Below, one piece after another: positions 3,498 to 62,993 of a DNA stretch of 64,000 nucleotides; positions within the stretch are counted from its first letter, which is position 1, and each line of letters starts with the position of its first letter. This DNA is from Chryseobacterium sp. FP211-J200. Its GTDB lineage: Bacteria > Bacteroidota > Bacteroidia > Flavobacteriales > Weeksellaceae. Location: assembly GCF_001643375.1 (NCBI RefSeq), contig NZ_LSHB01000016.1, forward strand, positions 1 through 64,000. Direction: 5' to 3'. A model generated the notes under the pieces. The model was not told the origin of the DNA, ran no database searches, and saw only the letters and a list, made by a program, of their open reading frames with translations. The translations under genes and the position numbers were made by a program.

Positions 3498-5525
3498 ATG
3501 AAAAAACTTTCCTACCTATTTTTACTTTCCAGCGTGTTTTATTTTTCGCAGAAGAGCGATTCTGTAGCACTAATTTCAGAGGTTAAAATCGATGCTTATA
3601 AAAAACCTGTTTCTTTTATTGCTTCCACCAAATCTGTGTCTGTGGTTTCGGAAAATTTGCTTTCTCAGAATCCGCCAGACCGTTTGCTGGAATCTGTGAA
3701 CCAAATTGCTGGTGCGAGAATGGAAGAACGTTCGCCGGGAAGTTACAGGATTGCGGTGCGCGGAAGTTCTTTGCTTTCGCCTTTTGGCGTTCGGAATGTA
3801 AAAGTTTATCTGGACGATTTTATTTTGTCCGATGCTTCGGGGAATACTTATTTTAATCAGATCTCGCCGGATTTAATTCATAAAATCGAGATTTACAAAG
3901 GTCCCGAAAGTGGTGATTTTGGTGCAGTGACTGGCGGAACTTTGTTGCTTCAAACTCAGAATTCTGATGACTTGTCTTTGAATCTTTCGTCTGGAAGTTA
4001 TGGGACTTTTAATGAAAGTATCAATTTTTCAAAGGAATTGGGGAAGCATTTTTTTCAAGTCTATCAAAATTATTACAGAACAGATTCTTACCGGGAACAA
4101 TCGGCGGTTGAGCGAAAGCAAATTTTCATTAAGGACAATTTCAAATACTCTGACAAAGGCGAACTGAAAGCGCTGCTACTCTTTTCCGATTTTGATTACG
4201 AGACGCCTGCTGGATTAACATTGGCGCAAATGGAAGCCAACCGAAAACAAGCCCGACCGGCAACGGCAACACTTCCCGGAGCGAAAGAGCAAAATGCAGG
4301 AATCAGAAATAAAATGGTCTTGGCTGGACTTTCCAATCAATATCAATTGACAGACGGACTTTCACATTTTGTTTTGGTTCAAGGCTCTTATGTCGATTTT
4401 GAGAATCCTTTCATCACCAATTTTGAAAACCGATTTGAAAGTAATTATGCACTTAGAACGCATTTCAATTACGAGAAAAATTGGAATAATGTTTCAGCTG
4501 AATGGCGATTAGGTTACGAAGGTGCGACCAATACAATTTATATCAAAAACTATGACAACAATAGTGGAATAGAAGGGAATCCACAGAATTTTGATAAGCT
4601 GAGAAACAATTCCGGGTTCTATTTTCTATCGCAGAAACTGAATGTTAATGAGCGGTTATTTACTGATATTTCCATTAGTTTAAATTCAAATGCTTACAAA
4701 TGGCAAAAGATTTTTCCGACTTCTGAAACTGGAAATGTAAAATTTAAGAATCAATGGTTGCCCAATTTTGGAATGACCTACGTTTTGGATAAAAGATTTT
4801 CTGTGAGAGGAAAAATCGGGAAAGGTAACTCGGCGCCGACAAATGAAGAGATCCGTTCTTCCAATCAGGAATTCAATTTCAATCTCGTTCCGGAATATGG
4901 CTGGAATAAGGAAATTGGCGTACGGAAACAATTTGGAAACACGGTTTTTGTGGAACTGAATTATTTTGATTTCCGAATGAAAGATGCGATTGTCCGAAGG
5001 CAGAATGAAGCTGGCCAGGAATATTTTGTGAATCAAGGAAACACGGTTCAGAAAGGTTGGGAATTTCTTTTGGAATCGAAGCGGTTTGATTTGAAAAATG
5101 ATATTTTGAGTCATTTCAAATTCAGATTTTCGGGAAGTCTTTATGATTTTAAATTTAAAAATTATGTTCAGGGAACTTCTGACTTTTCAGGAAATGCTTT
5201 GACAGGCGTTCCGAAAACCACCATCAACAGTTTGCTGAATTTCACTTTCTTCAAAAAATTAGCCGTTGATTATTCTCAATTTCTGACTTCAAAAATTCCT
5301 TTGACAGACTCGAATTCTGTTTGGTCGGAACCGAGTTTGGTTTCTAATATTCAATTCCGATACCCAATTGTTTTTGAAAAATCAAAGTTGGATTTGTATT
5401 TCCAAATTCAGAATTTGTACAATACGGATTATGTTTTAGGATTTGACATCAATGCTTTTGGAAACCGATTTTATAATCCATCGGCAAAACGGAATTTTGT
5501 GGTGGGCGCGACTATTCAATTATAA
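3498..5525 (+). CDS. TonB-dependent outer-membrane receptor
   Basis: From the chosen ATG the protein (675 aa) begins with a clear signal peptide, MKKLSYLFLLSSVFYFSQ; an upstream in-frame ATG at 3459 would put 13 residues in front of it. A plug domain follows (about residues 45-155, with ERSPGSYRIAVRGSS and VKVYLDDF...GPESGDFGAVTGG). The rest is a 22-strand-type barrel ending in the hydrophobic NFVVGATIQL. TonB receptors import siderophores, cobalamin, glycans or metals across the outer membrane. No substrate-specific neighbour (SusD, periplasmic permease, siderophore gene) is present. It converges with the next gene, with 3 bp between the stops. Confidence 0.88.
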   Translation: MKKLSYLFLLSSVFYFSQKSDSVALISEVKIDAYKKPVSFIASTKSVSVVSENLLSQNPPDRLLESVNQIAGARMEERSPGSYRIAVRGSSLLSPFGVRNVKVYLDDFILSDASGNTYFNQISPDLIHKIEIYKGPESGDFGAVTGGTLLLQTQNSDDLSLNLSSGSYGTFNESINFSKELGKHFFQVYQNYYRTDSYREQSAVERKQIFIKDNFKYSDKGELKALLLFSDFDYETPAGLTLAQMEANRKQARPATATLPGAKEQNAGIRNKMVLAGLSNQYQLTDGLSHFVLVQGSYVDFENPFITNFENRFESNYALRTHFNYEKNWNNVSAEWRLGYEGATNTIYIKNYDNNSGIEGNPQNFDKLRNNSGFYFLSQKLNVNERLFTDISISLNSNAYKWQKIFPTSETGNVKFKNQWLPNFGMTYVLDKRFSVRGKIGKGNSAPTNEEIRSSNQEFNFNLVPEYGWNKEIGVRKQFGNTVFVELNYFDFRMKDAIVRRQNEAGQEYFVNQGNTVQKGWEFLLESKRFDLKNDILSHFKFRFSGSLYDFKFKNYVQGTSDFSGNALTGVPKTTINSLLNFTFFKKLAVDYSQFLTSKIPLTDSNSVWSEPSLVSNIQFRYPIVFEKSKLDLYFQIQNLYNTDYVLGFDINAFGNRFYNPSAKRNFVVGATIQL

Positions 5526-58362: not shown

Positions 58363-58464
58363 GGTTGGGAATCTCTCGCTGATTTGGCAAATTGTGCAGA
58401 TTTATCAACTATGGATTTTGTTCTTATTGAAATGTTCTGGAAATGGACAAAACTTAAATTGTGG

Positions 58465-58608
58465 CGAAGCTGCGTAAGGGATGGTAGTGGAAATCCTTTT
58501 TGTCTTTGTGGAAGCGTCTTTCTTAGACCGATGGTGAAAGACAAAAAGATTGCAACGGACAGCCCGACCCGAGCTGCGGGAAAGTTTGGCGAGGGGTACG
58601 CCCAAATA
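58465..58608 (+). repeat. Dispersed hairpin repeat, copy B2
   Basis: GAAGCTGCGTAAGGGATGGT, AGTGGAAATC, hairpin, GATTGCAACGGACAGCCCGA, CCCGAGCTGCGGG, GGCGAGGGGTACGCCCAAAT. The hairpin arms are a perfect 12-bp inverted repeat (58496-58507 and 58537-58548, CTTTTTGTCTTT type). ORFs over it are by-products. It lies in the ~600-bp gap before ssrA. Confidence 0.82.
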
Positions 58609-58713: not shown

Positions 58714-59109
58714 GGGGTTGACTGGTTTCGACAGCAAGGTCAATGGGTAAGTAAGCATGCAGAGAACCGTAGCGCGATCTCTTAAATCCCTTGCTACACA
58801 CTTTTAACTGGCAACGAAGAGTTCGCTCTTGCAGCTTAATCCGAAGTTTAGTAGGATCCAGCGCTTTCCCGAAGATAGTAAGGAAGCAAGATGTCTCACA
58901 AACGCTCTGTTCTGCGGCGTTTGATCCTGGGGCATAGCAATGCAGAAATAAGGTTTTGGGCACTTCGACCAAGATTCGAAAATCTCAGAAGATAAGGTTT
59001 AGGTTGGGTGTTTGCTCTCTGCCTGAGCTCGAAAATCAATAGCGAAATAAGCATGTAGAAATCTTATGTATTGCTTGTTTGGACGAGGGTTCGAATCCCT
59101 CCAACTCCA
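58714..59109 (+). ncRNA. ssrA: Transfer-messenger RNA (tmRNA, SsrA)
   Basis: The 5' end GGGGTTGACTGGTTTCGACA and 3' end GGTTCGAATCCCTCCAACTC form the tRNA-like domain; the acceptor stem pairs GGGGUUG with CAACUCC (one G-U). The reading frame GGC...GCT TAA at 58810-58839 encodes the tag GNEEFALAA with the usual ALAA protease signal. It rescues stalled ribosomes with SmpB and marks the products for degradation. The terminal CCA is not encoded (the DNA reads ACAACC), so it must be added after processing. Its 3' end is the likely attachment site of the integrase element that follows. Confidence 0.97.
59085..59109 (+). other. Likely att core at the ssrA 3' end
   Basis: The T-arm and acceptor 3' strand (GGGTTCGAATCCCTCCAACT) directly precede an integrase gene oriented away from ssrA. 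Tyrosine integrases commonly use this part of tRNA and tmRNA genes. The other att copy should lie beyond the right window edge; the exact boundaries are not determinable here. Confidence 0.55.
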
Positions 59110-59122
59110 CAACCTACACAAC

Positions 59123-59257: not shown

Positions 59258-59309
59258 ATTACTACAATTCAATTTTTATTTTACATTTGTAGTAGAACAA
59301 TTACTACAA
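59258..59309 (+). promoter_or_regulatory. Integrase promoter with flanking direct repeats
   Basis: A TACATTTG -7 box (59282-59289) is framed by two exact copies of ATTACTACAA (59258-59267 and 59300-59309), with an inverted half (GTAGT, 59289-59293) between them. The second copy ends 3 bp before the integrase ATG. A repressor or excisionase bound here would block transcription. Confidence 0.5.
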
Positions 59310-59312
59310 AAA

Positions 59313-60608
59313 ATGGCTTACAGTTTTTTTCTCAGAGGTACAAAGGATGTAAAGAAAATTTATATCTCCATAACGCACGGTTCCGATCTAAAAGTTATCC
59401 GGCCAACAGATTTTAAGGTCGATGTTAATAGCTGGGATAAAGTTCAGAAAAGAATGAAACTAAATGAAGTCGAAAGTCAGCTTAAGAATAGCGCGCCAAT
59501 TAAAATACAGCGCCAGAATGCAATTGCTGACTTTAATAAAAAATTCTCTGATTTTGAGCAGGATTTTATCAGCTACTTCAATTCTCTACTGGATAACAAT
59601 CGATTGACTGAAACAAAGCTTGTAGAATTCTTCACCGGACAAAATAAAACGAACGAAATCCCGACTGATTTTAAAAGTTTCGTAGATTATTATTGCGATA
59701 TGAATATCGGGATAACAGAAAGCACGAAGAAAGTTTATAAAAGAACCAGAAATCTAGTGTCTGGGTTTAATCCTAAATTAAGAATGCAGGATATTGATGA
59801 TCGATTCAAAAAAGATTTTGGGAGTTATCTTGACAAAAACAATTATCAAAGGTCGTATATCAGAAAAACTATCGGAAATGTTAAAGACTTCTGGAAATAT
59901 GCAAAGAGAAAGAAAATCAATGTGTCTGATGATCCGGAATGGTGGGAACTGACAAAGGATTTCCCTGACTTAGCAAAAGACCTGGCAGATGATCCTTATT
60001 TAACGTGGGAAGAATTGGAAGCAATAAGATTAGTTGTGTTTGATAACAATTACCTTGACAACGCCAGAGATTGGCTCTTGATTAGCTGTTGGACCGCGCA
60101 GCGAGTATCTGATTTAATGGAATTCACTTTTGATAAAATTATCACTGACGAAAAAGGAAGTAAGTTTCTTCCAATCATCCAAGAAAAGACAGGTTCTAAA
60201 ATAACGATTCCTTTATTTCAAGAAGTTGAAAGCATCCTTAACAAAAGGGATGGGAACTTTCCTAGGAAAATTAGTGATCAGAAGTACAATGATTATATAA
60301 AGCTTGTATGCAAGGAAGCAAAAATAACAGATATGGTTTTCGCTCCAAAATATAGACAGCCGGTCATAGTCAATGGCAAAACGGTGTACAGGAAAATTGT
60401 AGGCTTTTTTCCAAAGAATGAAGTGATCACAAGTCACGTTGGCCGGAGGACATTCGTTTCATTATTCATTAACAATGTAGATCTGGATTCGATCAGGAAA
60501 ATAACTGGACACACACGCGATAAGATGGTAGAAGTTTACAATCGACTCAATTCCCTTGAAAGAGCTGAAATCACCAAAGCAAAATTCAGGGATGCTGGGT
60601 TTGAATAG
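59313..60608 (+). CDS. Tyrosine-type site-specific integrase
   Basis: From MAYSFFLRGTKDVKKIYISI (431 aa) it has an arm-binding beta domain (to about 60), a SAM-like core-binding domain (FKSFVDYYCDMNIGITESTK, about 115-220) and a catalytic domain. The catalytic arginine is in TAQRVSDLMEF, a lysine in EKTGSKITIPL, HVGRRTF supplies His and Arg, GHTRDKM the second His, and the nucleophilic tyrosine is in VEVYNRL. It would integrate the element at ssrA. I chose the ATG directly after the promoter rather than the ORF start 99 bp upstream, which precedes the -7 box. Confidence 0.93.
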   Translation: MAYSFFLRGTKDVKKIYISITHGSDLKVIRPTDFKVDVNSWDKVQKRMKLNEVESQLKNSAPIKIQRQNAIADFNKKFSDFEQDFISYFNSLLDNNRLTETKLVEFFTGQNKTNEIPTDFKSFVDYYCDMNIGITESTKKVYKRTRNLVSGFNPKLRMQDIDDRFKKDFGSYLDKNNYQRSYIRKTIGNVKDFWKYAKRKKINVSDDPEWWELTKDFPDLAKDLADDPYLTWEELEAIRLVVFDNNYLDNARDWLLISCWTAQRVSDLMEFTFDKIITDEKGSKFLPIIQEKTGSKITIPLFQEVESILNKRDGNFPRKISDQKYNDYIKLVCKEAKITDMVFAPKYRQPVIVNGKTVYRKIVGFFPKNEVITSHVGRRTFVSLFINNVDLDSIRKITGHTRDKMVEVYNRLNSLERAEITKAKFRDAGFE

Positions 60609-61544: not shown

Positions 61545-62170
61545 TGGTTTTATAATGTGATTCAAACTCACCTTTTAAATACGGCCAAAAACCACATTAT
61601 AGTAGGCCTACAGCAAACAAGGGTTGTCCACAATTGGACAAGGTGTTTTTATACTCGCCAAAACACTGTAAATCAGGCGACATAGAAAAACACTATGTCG
61701 CTCATAAAACGAAAATAATAGTCTGATGGTTTACCATAAAATTGTGGTAAACCTCAAATTTTAGATCTGTCCACAATTGGACAGACGTATTTCAAAGGGC
61801 AGATTAGCCTTTTGGAAATTAAAAAATATTAACTATAAAGGGTTCGACAAGTTTGTCGAGAGCAACGAAGTTAAAGATTTGAGCGTTTTCACAATTGTAT
61901 GAAAGCGGGAGGAAGACTGATAGATCCGCACAAAGCTGTGCAGATGATAAAAGTGCAACTGTACATTTTAATGGGTATGCTCAAAATTGAGCCGACCTAC
62001 CTCAGTTTGAGGAAGTATAAAAACGACAATTCACGCTTTTATGGAATCGGCTGAGATTTCAGCCGATTACTACAAAGATTTGTTGACTCCTCAAATTTGA
62101 GGTATCATAAAAACACAAATTCGTGTTTTTATGGAAATGGTTGAAGGTGGGAATGGCTGAAATTTCAGCT
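61545..62170. repeat. Array of about fifteen different short hairpins
   Basis: A ~650-bp stretch without genes contains a dense series of small perfect or near-perfect inverted repeats with 2-8 nt loops. Main stems: 61624-61641 (7 bp), 61643-61666 (7), 61677-61701 (9), 61729-61752 (8), 61766-61785 (8), 61843-61860 (7), 61884-61907 (8, one G-U), 61928-61941 (5), 61979-61992 (5), 62000-62012 (5), 62017-62042 (6+2), 62045-62068 (10), 62089-62102 (palindrome), 62106-62133 (11), 62156-62169 (palindrome). A GTAGGCCTAC palindrome is at 61602-61611. The stems differ in sequence, except that 61625-61640 and 61768-61783 share TGTCCACAATTGGACA. Confidence 0.85.
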
Positions 62171-62246
62171 GTGAATAACAAAATAAAAGTTGTTTTTCAG
62201 CCTACATTTTCTACATTAGCTACATTTCGAGTAAAAATTGATAATT

Positions 62247-62993
62247 ATGGATTACCTAAAAACTGGCTTGCCGGATCGATTTAAAAATGTTGTAACTGAA
62301 TCAACGGATTTTGAAAATACAATTTTGTCGAACTTGGATAGGCAAATCATTGAAATTGCAAAGGAGATAAATTATTCGAGAGAAGAATTATCATTCTATT
62401 ACTATGTCGAAAATATTAAGCGCAATATCTTAGAATTAAAAGCCGGCAACCAGCGCTCAATAATAAATTATATTACTGAGCAAACCGTTCCATTATTCGC
62501 AATTGCAAAAGATCAGGAAGTGACCAAATCCTTATTTCAAAATGATGTGATTAAAACCAGATTACCTCAAGCAGAAATCGACAGGAGAATAAATATTTTA
62601 TCAAATGCCCTTTTAGGTATCTATCCGAAGGAAATAATTGAAAAAGAATATAACTTTTGTGACTTTACAATACATGACTACGACGAAAGGACAATCGAAA
62701 GTTTCTTAGGATACGCTAAATTCATTGAAAGTCAAAATTTCTCGCAAATCCGGAAGGCTATCTTAATTTTCGTGTTGATCGACCAAGGAGTTATCAAAGA
62801 AGGAATGCCATTAAAACCGGTCTTAGCTTCAATCTACGGAAACAGGAACATCAATAAGGTATATGAGCACCTCAGAGATTATGAAGAAGGATGCAGCTTT
62901 ATTGATGACATAAAAAAAGATATTACCCATAACAAATACAAAATTTATATAGAAATCGAAAAAGGTGTGCTGTCACACTTTTCACACAAATAA
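62247..62993 (+). CDS. Hypothetical protein of the integrated element
   Basis: A 248-aa soluble, largely helical protein starting MDYLKTGLPDRFKNVVTEST; a TTG codon 9 bp upstream is a less likely start. It has no recognisable motif. KAGNQRSIINYITEQTVPLF and VFVLIDQGVIKEGMPLKPVL-like stretches (the latter reads FVLIDQGVIKEG) suggest a globular all-alpha domain. By position, between an HTH gene and the replication primase, it may serve replication or maintenance of the element; this is inference only. Confidence 0.62.
   Translation: MDYLKTGLPDRFKNVVTESTDFENTILSNLDRQIIEIAKEINYSREELSFYYYVENIKRNILELKAGNQRSIINYITEQTVPLFAIAKDQEVTKSLFQNDVIKTRLPQAEIDRRINILSNALLGIYPKEIIEKEYNFCDFTIHDYDERTIESFLGYAKFIESQNFSQIRKAILIFVLIDQGVIKEGMPLKPVLASIYGNRNINKVYEHLRDYEEGCSFIDDIKKDITHNKYKIYIEIEKGVLSHFSHK

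Follow-up and report, generated by a model that had tools for sequence, protein, structure and literature searches.

Palindromic DNA inside open reading frames (ORFs) is known from the Rickettsia palindromic elements, which are inserted mobile repeats. BstA is a prophage-associated protein with a domain like KilA-N. It prevents phages from replicating, and cognate DNA situated at the bstA locus neutralises it (Owen et al. 2021, PMC8585504). The DNA in question, aba, is a short element that gives cognate, variant-specific self-immunity; it acts as DNA, and does so also in trans on a multicopy replicon. It comprises 63 bp across the bstA start and has CCCGCC direct repeats, but is not a palindrome (PMC8585504). 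This article examines a dense array of palindromes, referred to below as tags, at positions 61551–62172 of a 64,000-nucleotide stretch of DNA from Chryseobacterium sp. FP211-J200 (the window, meaning the whole stretch that was analysed). The 3′ end of the transfer-messenger RNA (tmRNA) gene is the integration site of an element whose left part falls inside the window. Within this element, the array is flanked on one side by a DUF3853 gene and on the other by an unknown-family ORF, and has no long open frame itself.

The array palindromes are homologous to coding segments of phage regulator genes, yet they stand outside long open frames and in both orientations, and similar arrays occur elsewhere. 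We put at roughly one in two the probability that the array brings together DNA sites each recognised by its cognate phage antirepressor- or defence-type protein (Bro-N, KilA-N, AntA and Rha), for which it would act as a decoy. By analogy with BstA, the array would titrate such proteins when a prophage, resident or rival, produces them, or they would take the DNA of the element as 'self'. Each array member would provide one specificity, and new specificities would be added by duplication and then compensatory change. More tentatively, the KilA-N, Bro-N, AntA, Rha and ORF6N genes may each contain a hypervariable palindrome to which their own protein binds; gene, specificity and tag would then form one unit, and arrays would be a multi-valent pass.

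Palindromes in phage regulator genes

The array comprises about 15 short palindromes, with few mismatches. Nine of them score at least 7.5, against 0.39 ± 0.62 in dinucleotide shuffles, and the array accounts for 8 of the window's 37 palindromes. In related-genome searches, array pieces matched the coding sequence of AntA (L002), Rha (L007) and Bro-N with ANT (L108) genes. They also matched a KilA-N-like family, 'KTGGRGENKS' (L102, L111), whose KilA-N likeness is a reading of its sequence, as no Pfam match was obtained at 0.01, and tag-like remnants behind the truncated KilA-N gene of the element itself (L010:16700–17250). The source genes of the tags are phage regulator genes of the KilA-N (PF04383), Bro-N (PF02498), AntA (PF08346), Rha (PF09669) and ORF6N (PF10543) families. 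No description of an intragenic palindrome or of a tag array in these genes was found in the open-access papers searched.

In all five classes of gene, a palindrome was seen in a variable coding segment, which in Bro-N, KilA-N, AntA and Rha genes belongs to the N-terminal domain, and within each class the length and centre of the tag are fixed. KilA-N genes of the family have a palindrome of 26–34 bp, mostly centred on GAATTC; the peptide it encodes is F[KN]xxEFxxF[KR] or a close variant. Of 55 KilA-N genes from viral contigs, 43 do better than each of their 40 synonymous-codon shuffles, and the codons concerned are nearly always the same. The sequence of this palindrome is hypervariable, and its arms compensate for each other's changes. 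In 53 distinct KilA-N tags, 93.5% of positions are paired and covariation amounts to 0.440, compared with 0.143 after shuffling and 0.09–0.14 with the partner slid; at the six core positions, 280 of 318 cells are complementary, against approximately 123 expected under independence. AntA genes have a 24-nucleotide palindrome after 'ENxDF'; 18 of 69 genes beat all 30 shuffles, and complementary pairs exceed independence at most positions. Examples of coding palindromes were also found in Rha and ORF6N genes, the ORF6N identity of L076 being given by Pfam.

Pairing of this kind could in principle reflect a structured or antisense RNA, in which a chain of hairpins would pair with its counterparts in antirepressor mRNAs, and the + strand of the array does fold very stably (z −13.7). 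However, the − strand is about equally stable (z −11.8), both tag orientations occur in one array, tag lengths are fixed, and no Rfam match was found in the array at gathering thresholds. The coding tags do not favour G.T either; the mismatches at hypervariable KilA-N positions are 8 G.T and 12 A.C. The RNA explanation is very improbable, and was rejected for its lack of G.T bias, for strand symmetry and for the missing Rfam match. Since G.T is not preferred, both strands fold equally and each class has a fixed length and centre, the palindrome is probably a two-fold symmetric double-stranded DNA site, and not an RNA hairpin.

If so, a candidate reader is the protein encoded around it. Once overall protein similarity is removed, similarity of the palindrome core correlates with KilA-N residues 41, 45, 40, 44 and 48 (r 0.55 to 0.37), followed by residues 102 and 88; in permutations, 95% of the maxima stay under 0.22. 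The correlation persists when pairs of more than 60% identity are dropped. Linkage does not explain it, because most residues located nearer the tag along the chain show no correlation. Residues 40, 41, 44, 45 and 48 form one face of a helix in the KilA-N protein. Asp41 together with Lys44 occurs in 12 of 12 genes with the core ..GGTC and in 1 of 37 others, and Arg48 in 40 of 42 genes with C at the innermost variable base and in 0 of 7 without it, both sets of counts ignoring relatedness; after thinning to 25 proteins of less than 65% identity, the Asp41/Lys44 association is 4 of 4 versus 1 of 21. Such covariation between core and helix is as expected if the protein reads a site within its own gene, and the coevolution of tag and helix 40–48 is consistent with cognate pairs. 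In a predicted KilA-N structure (predicted local distance difference test score, pLDDT, 90), residues 39–46 are in a helix and the tag-coded segment is in another (69–78). The N-terminal domain resembles the DNA-binding domains of Mbp1 (Z 8.0) and PCG2 (Z 7.6), and the whole protein resembles DdrC, which also binds DNA (Z 10.9); with Foldseek alone, no match reached an E value under 1e-3. Overall, there is strong support for the palindrome being a duplex DNA site which the product of its own gene recognises.

Tags of the array and the duplicated module

From left to right, the array begins with tag A1 (61573–61602, + strand), of the KilA-N-like class 'ILNT..NHIIKSKxGKGGGT', which matches L010:17090–17118 at 90% of 29 nucleotides and has the same coding context in the viral genes L082 and L094. 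A pattern scan of IMG/VR for A1 returned mostly chance matches and two true genes. Tag A2 (61624–61641, +) is a 16-nucleotide exact repeat of the Rha tag A6, with which it shares the core GTCCACAATTGGAC. Tag A4 (61677–61701, +) is of the Bro-N class (HCKSGDIEKHYVAHK) and matches the Bro-N and ANT gene of L108 ('HCKSGDTTKRFVAHK') at 80% of 46 nucleotides; it has no exact match in IMG/VR. Tag A5 (61728–61753), on the − strand, is of the AntA class (VYHNFMVN); it matches L107 at 90% of 31 nucleotides, where its counterpart is a hairpin just upstream of an AntA gene, and has coding counterparts in L229 and L254.

Tag A6 (61766–61785, +), of the Rha class (DLSTIGQT), matches the Rha gene in L007 at 83% of 45 nucleotides. 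Its 18-mer CTGTCCACAATTGGACAG has a single exact match among 2.9 million IMG/VR viral contigs, and this lies at the expected place in a Rha gene (L316). Tag A7 (61790–61817, −) is of the KilA-N class 'KxRKSxLxDLVKV'; its core is identical in G149 (L057/L311), G224 (L103/L312) and L315, with different flanks. A 20-mer of A7 occurs at three places in GTDB contigs, namely in L315, beside another palindrome near a tRNA, and at two sites that look like chance or a terminator. Two + strand tags of the AntA class follow: A8 (61841–61864; GFDKFVES), which matches the AntA gene in L002 at 90% of 49 nucleotides (E 1.4e-11), and A9 (61884–61907; RFHNCMKA), which matches L010:16988–17032, downstream of the element's own KilA-N gene, at 84% over approximately 45 nucleotides and differs from this copy by one compensatory pair. 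No class was assigned to the palindromes GCACAAAGCTGTGC (61924–61945) and GCTCAAAATTGAGC (61979–61992); the former has a similar counterpart, GCACAAAATTGTGC, and the latter an identical one in the array of L310, from another genus.

The right end of the array is formed by two copies of a three-hairpin module (62000–62068 and 62089–62169; direct repeat of 49 nucleotides, 76%, spacing 90). The duplication had been recognised in the first-pass annotation, as had the wider spacing of the second copy, in which the gap between hairpins b and c is about 17–18 nucleotides longer. Hairpin a (62000–62012 and 62089–62102) has no assigned class. Hairpin b (62016–62044 and 62106–62134, both +) is a tag of the 'KTGGRGENKS' gene family, reading IKTTIHAFME in module 1 and IKTQIRVFME in module 2; the second copy matches the gene in L102 at 85% of 47 nucleotides (E 1.1e-7). 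Hairpin c (62045–62068, AEISADYY, and 62155–62169, AEISA, both +) is Rha-type by its short resemblance to the Rha tag GACGAGATTTCGGCC (DEISA) in L057.

The same annotation had read the middle-stem differences between the copies as compensatory. In hairpin b one pair has indeed changed on both sides and remains paired (G-C to A-T); the other arm differences are not double changes, two being unpaired in copy 1 but paired in copy 2, and one being T.G versus C-G. Hairpins a and c have zero double changes. With only one clean compensatory pair, the argument from two copies alone is weak. The alignment with relatives and covariation test that had been proposed proved more informative: the two copies of hairpin b and six gene copies (29 columns, gapless) have 87.5% paired cells and five pairs changed on both sides, with a covariation of 0.299 against 0.131 when shuffled (0 of 500 shuffles). 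The claim that the paired state is what matters holds in so far as complementarity of the arms is preserved, for which the relatives are far better evidence than the two copies; this state is probably something other than a folded strand. Made from sequence alone, the annotation could not see that the hairpins originate in the coding sequence of phage regulator genes.

Alignments between array and genes extend approximately 7–16 nucleotides past the palindrome on each side. Gene-like flanks of this kind would be expected of debris, i.e. a patchwork of decayed antirepressor genes in which palindromes are kept as recombination hot spots for domain shuffling, or are perfected by intrastrand template switching. 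The remnants behind the element's truncated KilA-N gene are similar, and template switching can, as a matter of general knowledge, give compensatory changes without selection. Yet the palindromes are near perfect despite the loss of their reading frames, arrays of several genera share one and the same A7 core although the flanks differ, and tags from at least four families are packed into one 620-bp stretch, with similarly dense arrays in other genera. Debris is rather unlikely as an explanation.

A CRISPR (clustered regularly interspaced short palindromic repeat) or iteron array was rejected, as the palindromes differ in sequence and the repeats are limited to one 49-nucleotide pair of 76% and short pairs. 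The whole array used as a query against plasmid and phage DNA gave no meaningful match.

The host element and arrays in other elements

The tmRNA gene that serves as integration site lies at 58714–59112 (+), and a second copy of its 3′ end occurs at contig position 76079 (L010:18080). The element encodes a tyrosine recombinase (integrase; 59304–60608, +), the DUF3853 protein, the unknown-family ORF, an excisionase-like (Xis-like) protein, a phage-type DNA primase and a 1285-residue protein. The last looks like a tape measure protein, a name taken from reading its sequence, with no database match. The ORF directly 3′ of the array (62247–62993, about 250 residues) matches nothing in Pfam or PHROG, and the 295 other genomes of the family yielded no relative. 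At L010:16535–16551, upstream of the KilA-N gene of the element, a palindrome, AGTGCGAAAAAGCACTT, repeats the intragenic AGTGAGAAAAAGCACTT at L010:16786–16802. A 56-nucleotide inverted repeat, 86% alike (window 62171–62226 and contig 75914–75970), joins the right edge of the array to the region just inside attR, the right attachment site. An Rfam Flavo-1 RNA lies directly upstream of the tmRNA gene (58464–58573).

Elsewhere in the same genome there is a stand-alone KilA-N gene (G000:C22:39930–40754; L020) with the tag TTTTAAACCCCTCGAATTCGAGGGGTTTAGGA and a coding palindrome of 32 bp; its protein belongs to the PADLOC candidate defence family PDC-S22 (E 8.6e-138). The searches of this genome returned no member of the AntA or Rha families.

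Arrays in other elements are variously placed. L310 (G240) has 7 palindromes scoring at least 7.5 against 0.42 expected; its element has a long gene similar to that of the window's element, and a related short gene near its end. In L312 (G224) three tags adjoin a long tape-measure-like gene, which is common to the array elements of G240, G224 and the window. About five tags lie beside a CRISPR array in L057/L311 (G149); left of position 9000 in L311 (G149:C31), a CRISPR-like direct-repeat array directly abuts the palindrome array. The viral contig L160 has, at 3740–3835, three tandem tags with different compensated cores (GGCACTGTCAATTTGACAGTACC, GGCACTTCCAATTTGGAAGTACC and GGCGCTTGCAATTTGCAAATCC), downstream of a KilA-N gene and ahead of a gene resembling Bro-N. 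The palindrome-rich windows L215 (GC-rich, 0.67), L221 and L282 were set aside.

The position of the array upstream of the 62247 ORF, the excisionase-like gene and the primase gene would also suit a set of operators: a control region bound by antirepressor-like proteins of the element or of a superinfecting phage, which governs this downstream operon or replication. The lone AntA-class tag just upstream of the AntA gene in L107 points the same way. Many specificities, including some for families not found in this genome (AntA and Rha), are hard to fit to one operator, however, and the position of the array varies among elements; regulation of this kind is distinctly unlikely.

Comparison with known systems

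Several points weigh against the array being a collection of cognate recognition sites. About four of its members, those at 61924 and 61979 and hairpin a, have no gene class so far, and the Rha assignment of hairpin c is a short resemblance only. The coevolution test was weak for AntA (top r 0.26 versus 0.17). Helices 39–48 and 69–78 may touch inside the protein, in which case part of the correlation between protein and DNA would be an intra-protein contact; the palindrome itself is independent of this caveat. Lastly bstA, the only gene for which self-immunity is proven, lacks a palindrome within its coding sequence (p 0.99), so the array is not a member of the BstA-aba system.

If the array does consist of recognition sites, its members may serve as passwords that keep regulator and defence proteins from acting on the element. 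Competing phages would then distinguish self from non-self by tags in the DNA, and arrays would be a new type of counter-defence. The persistence of a variable coding segment in phage antirepressor-type genes would be explained, and a large group of proteins that is poorly understood would gain a readable recognition code (helix residues 40–48 against the DNA palindrome).

The array may nevertheless work like BstA-aba. Both involve proteins with KilA-N-like domains and a short DNA element at the locus of the protein, here the coding tag, and the array is proposed, by analogy, to protect its element as aba protects the BstA prophage. The difference is that the array and the coding tags are palindromes, without terminal CCCGCC direct repeats in the sequences read. 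Arrays of aba elements with many specificities were not found in the open-access papers searched. The Rickettsia palindromic elements share with the coding tags the presence of palindromic DNA inside ORFs; here, instead of mobile insertions, the palindromes occupy one homologous place, and their arms covary.
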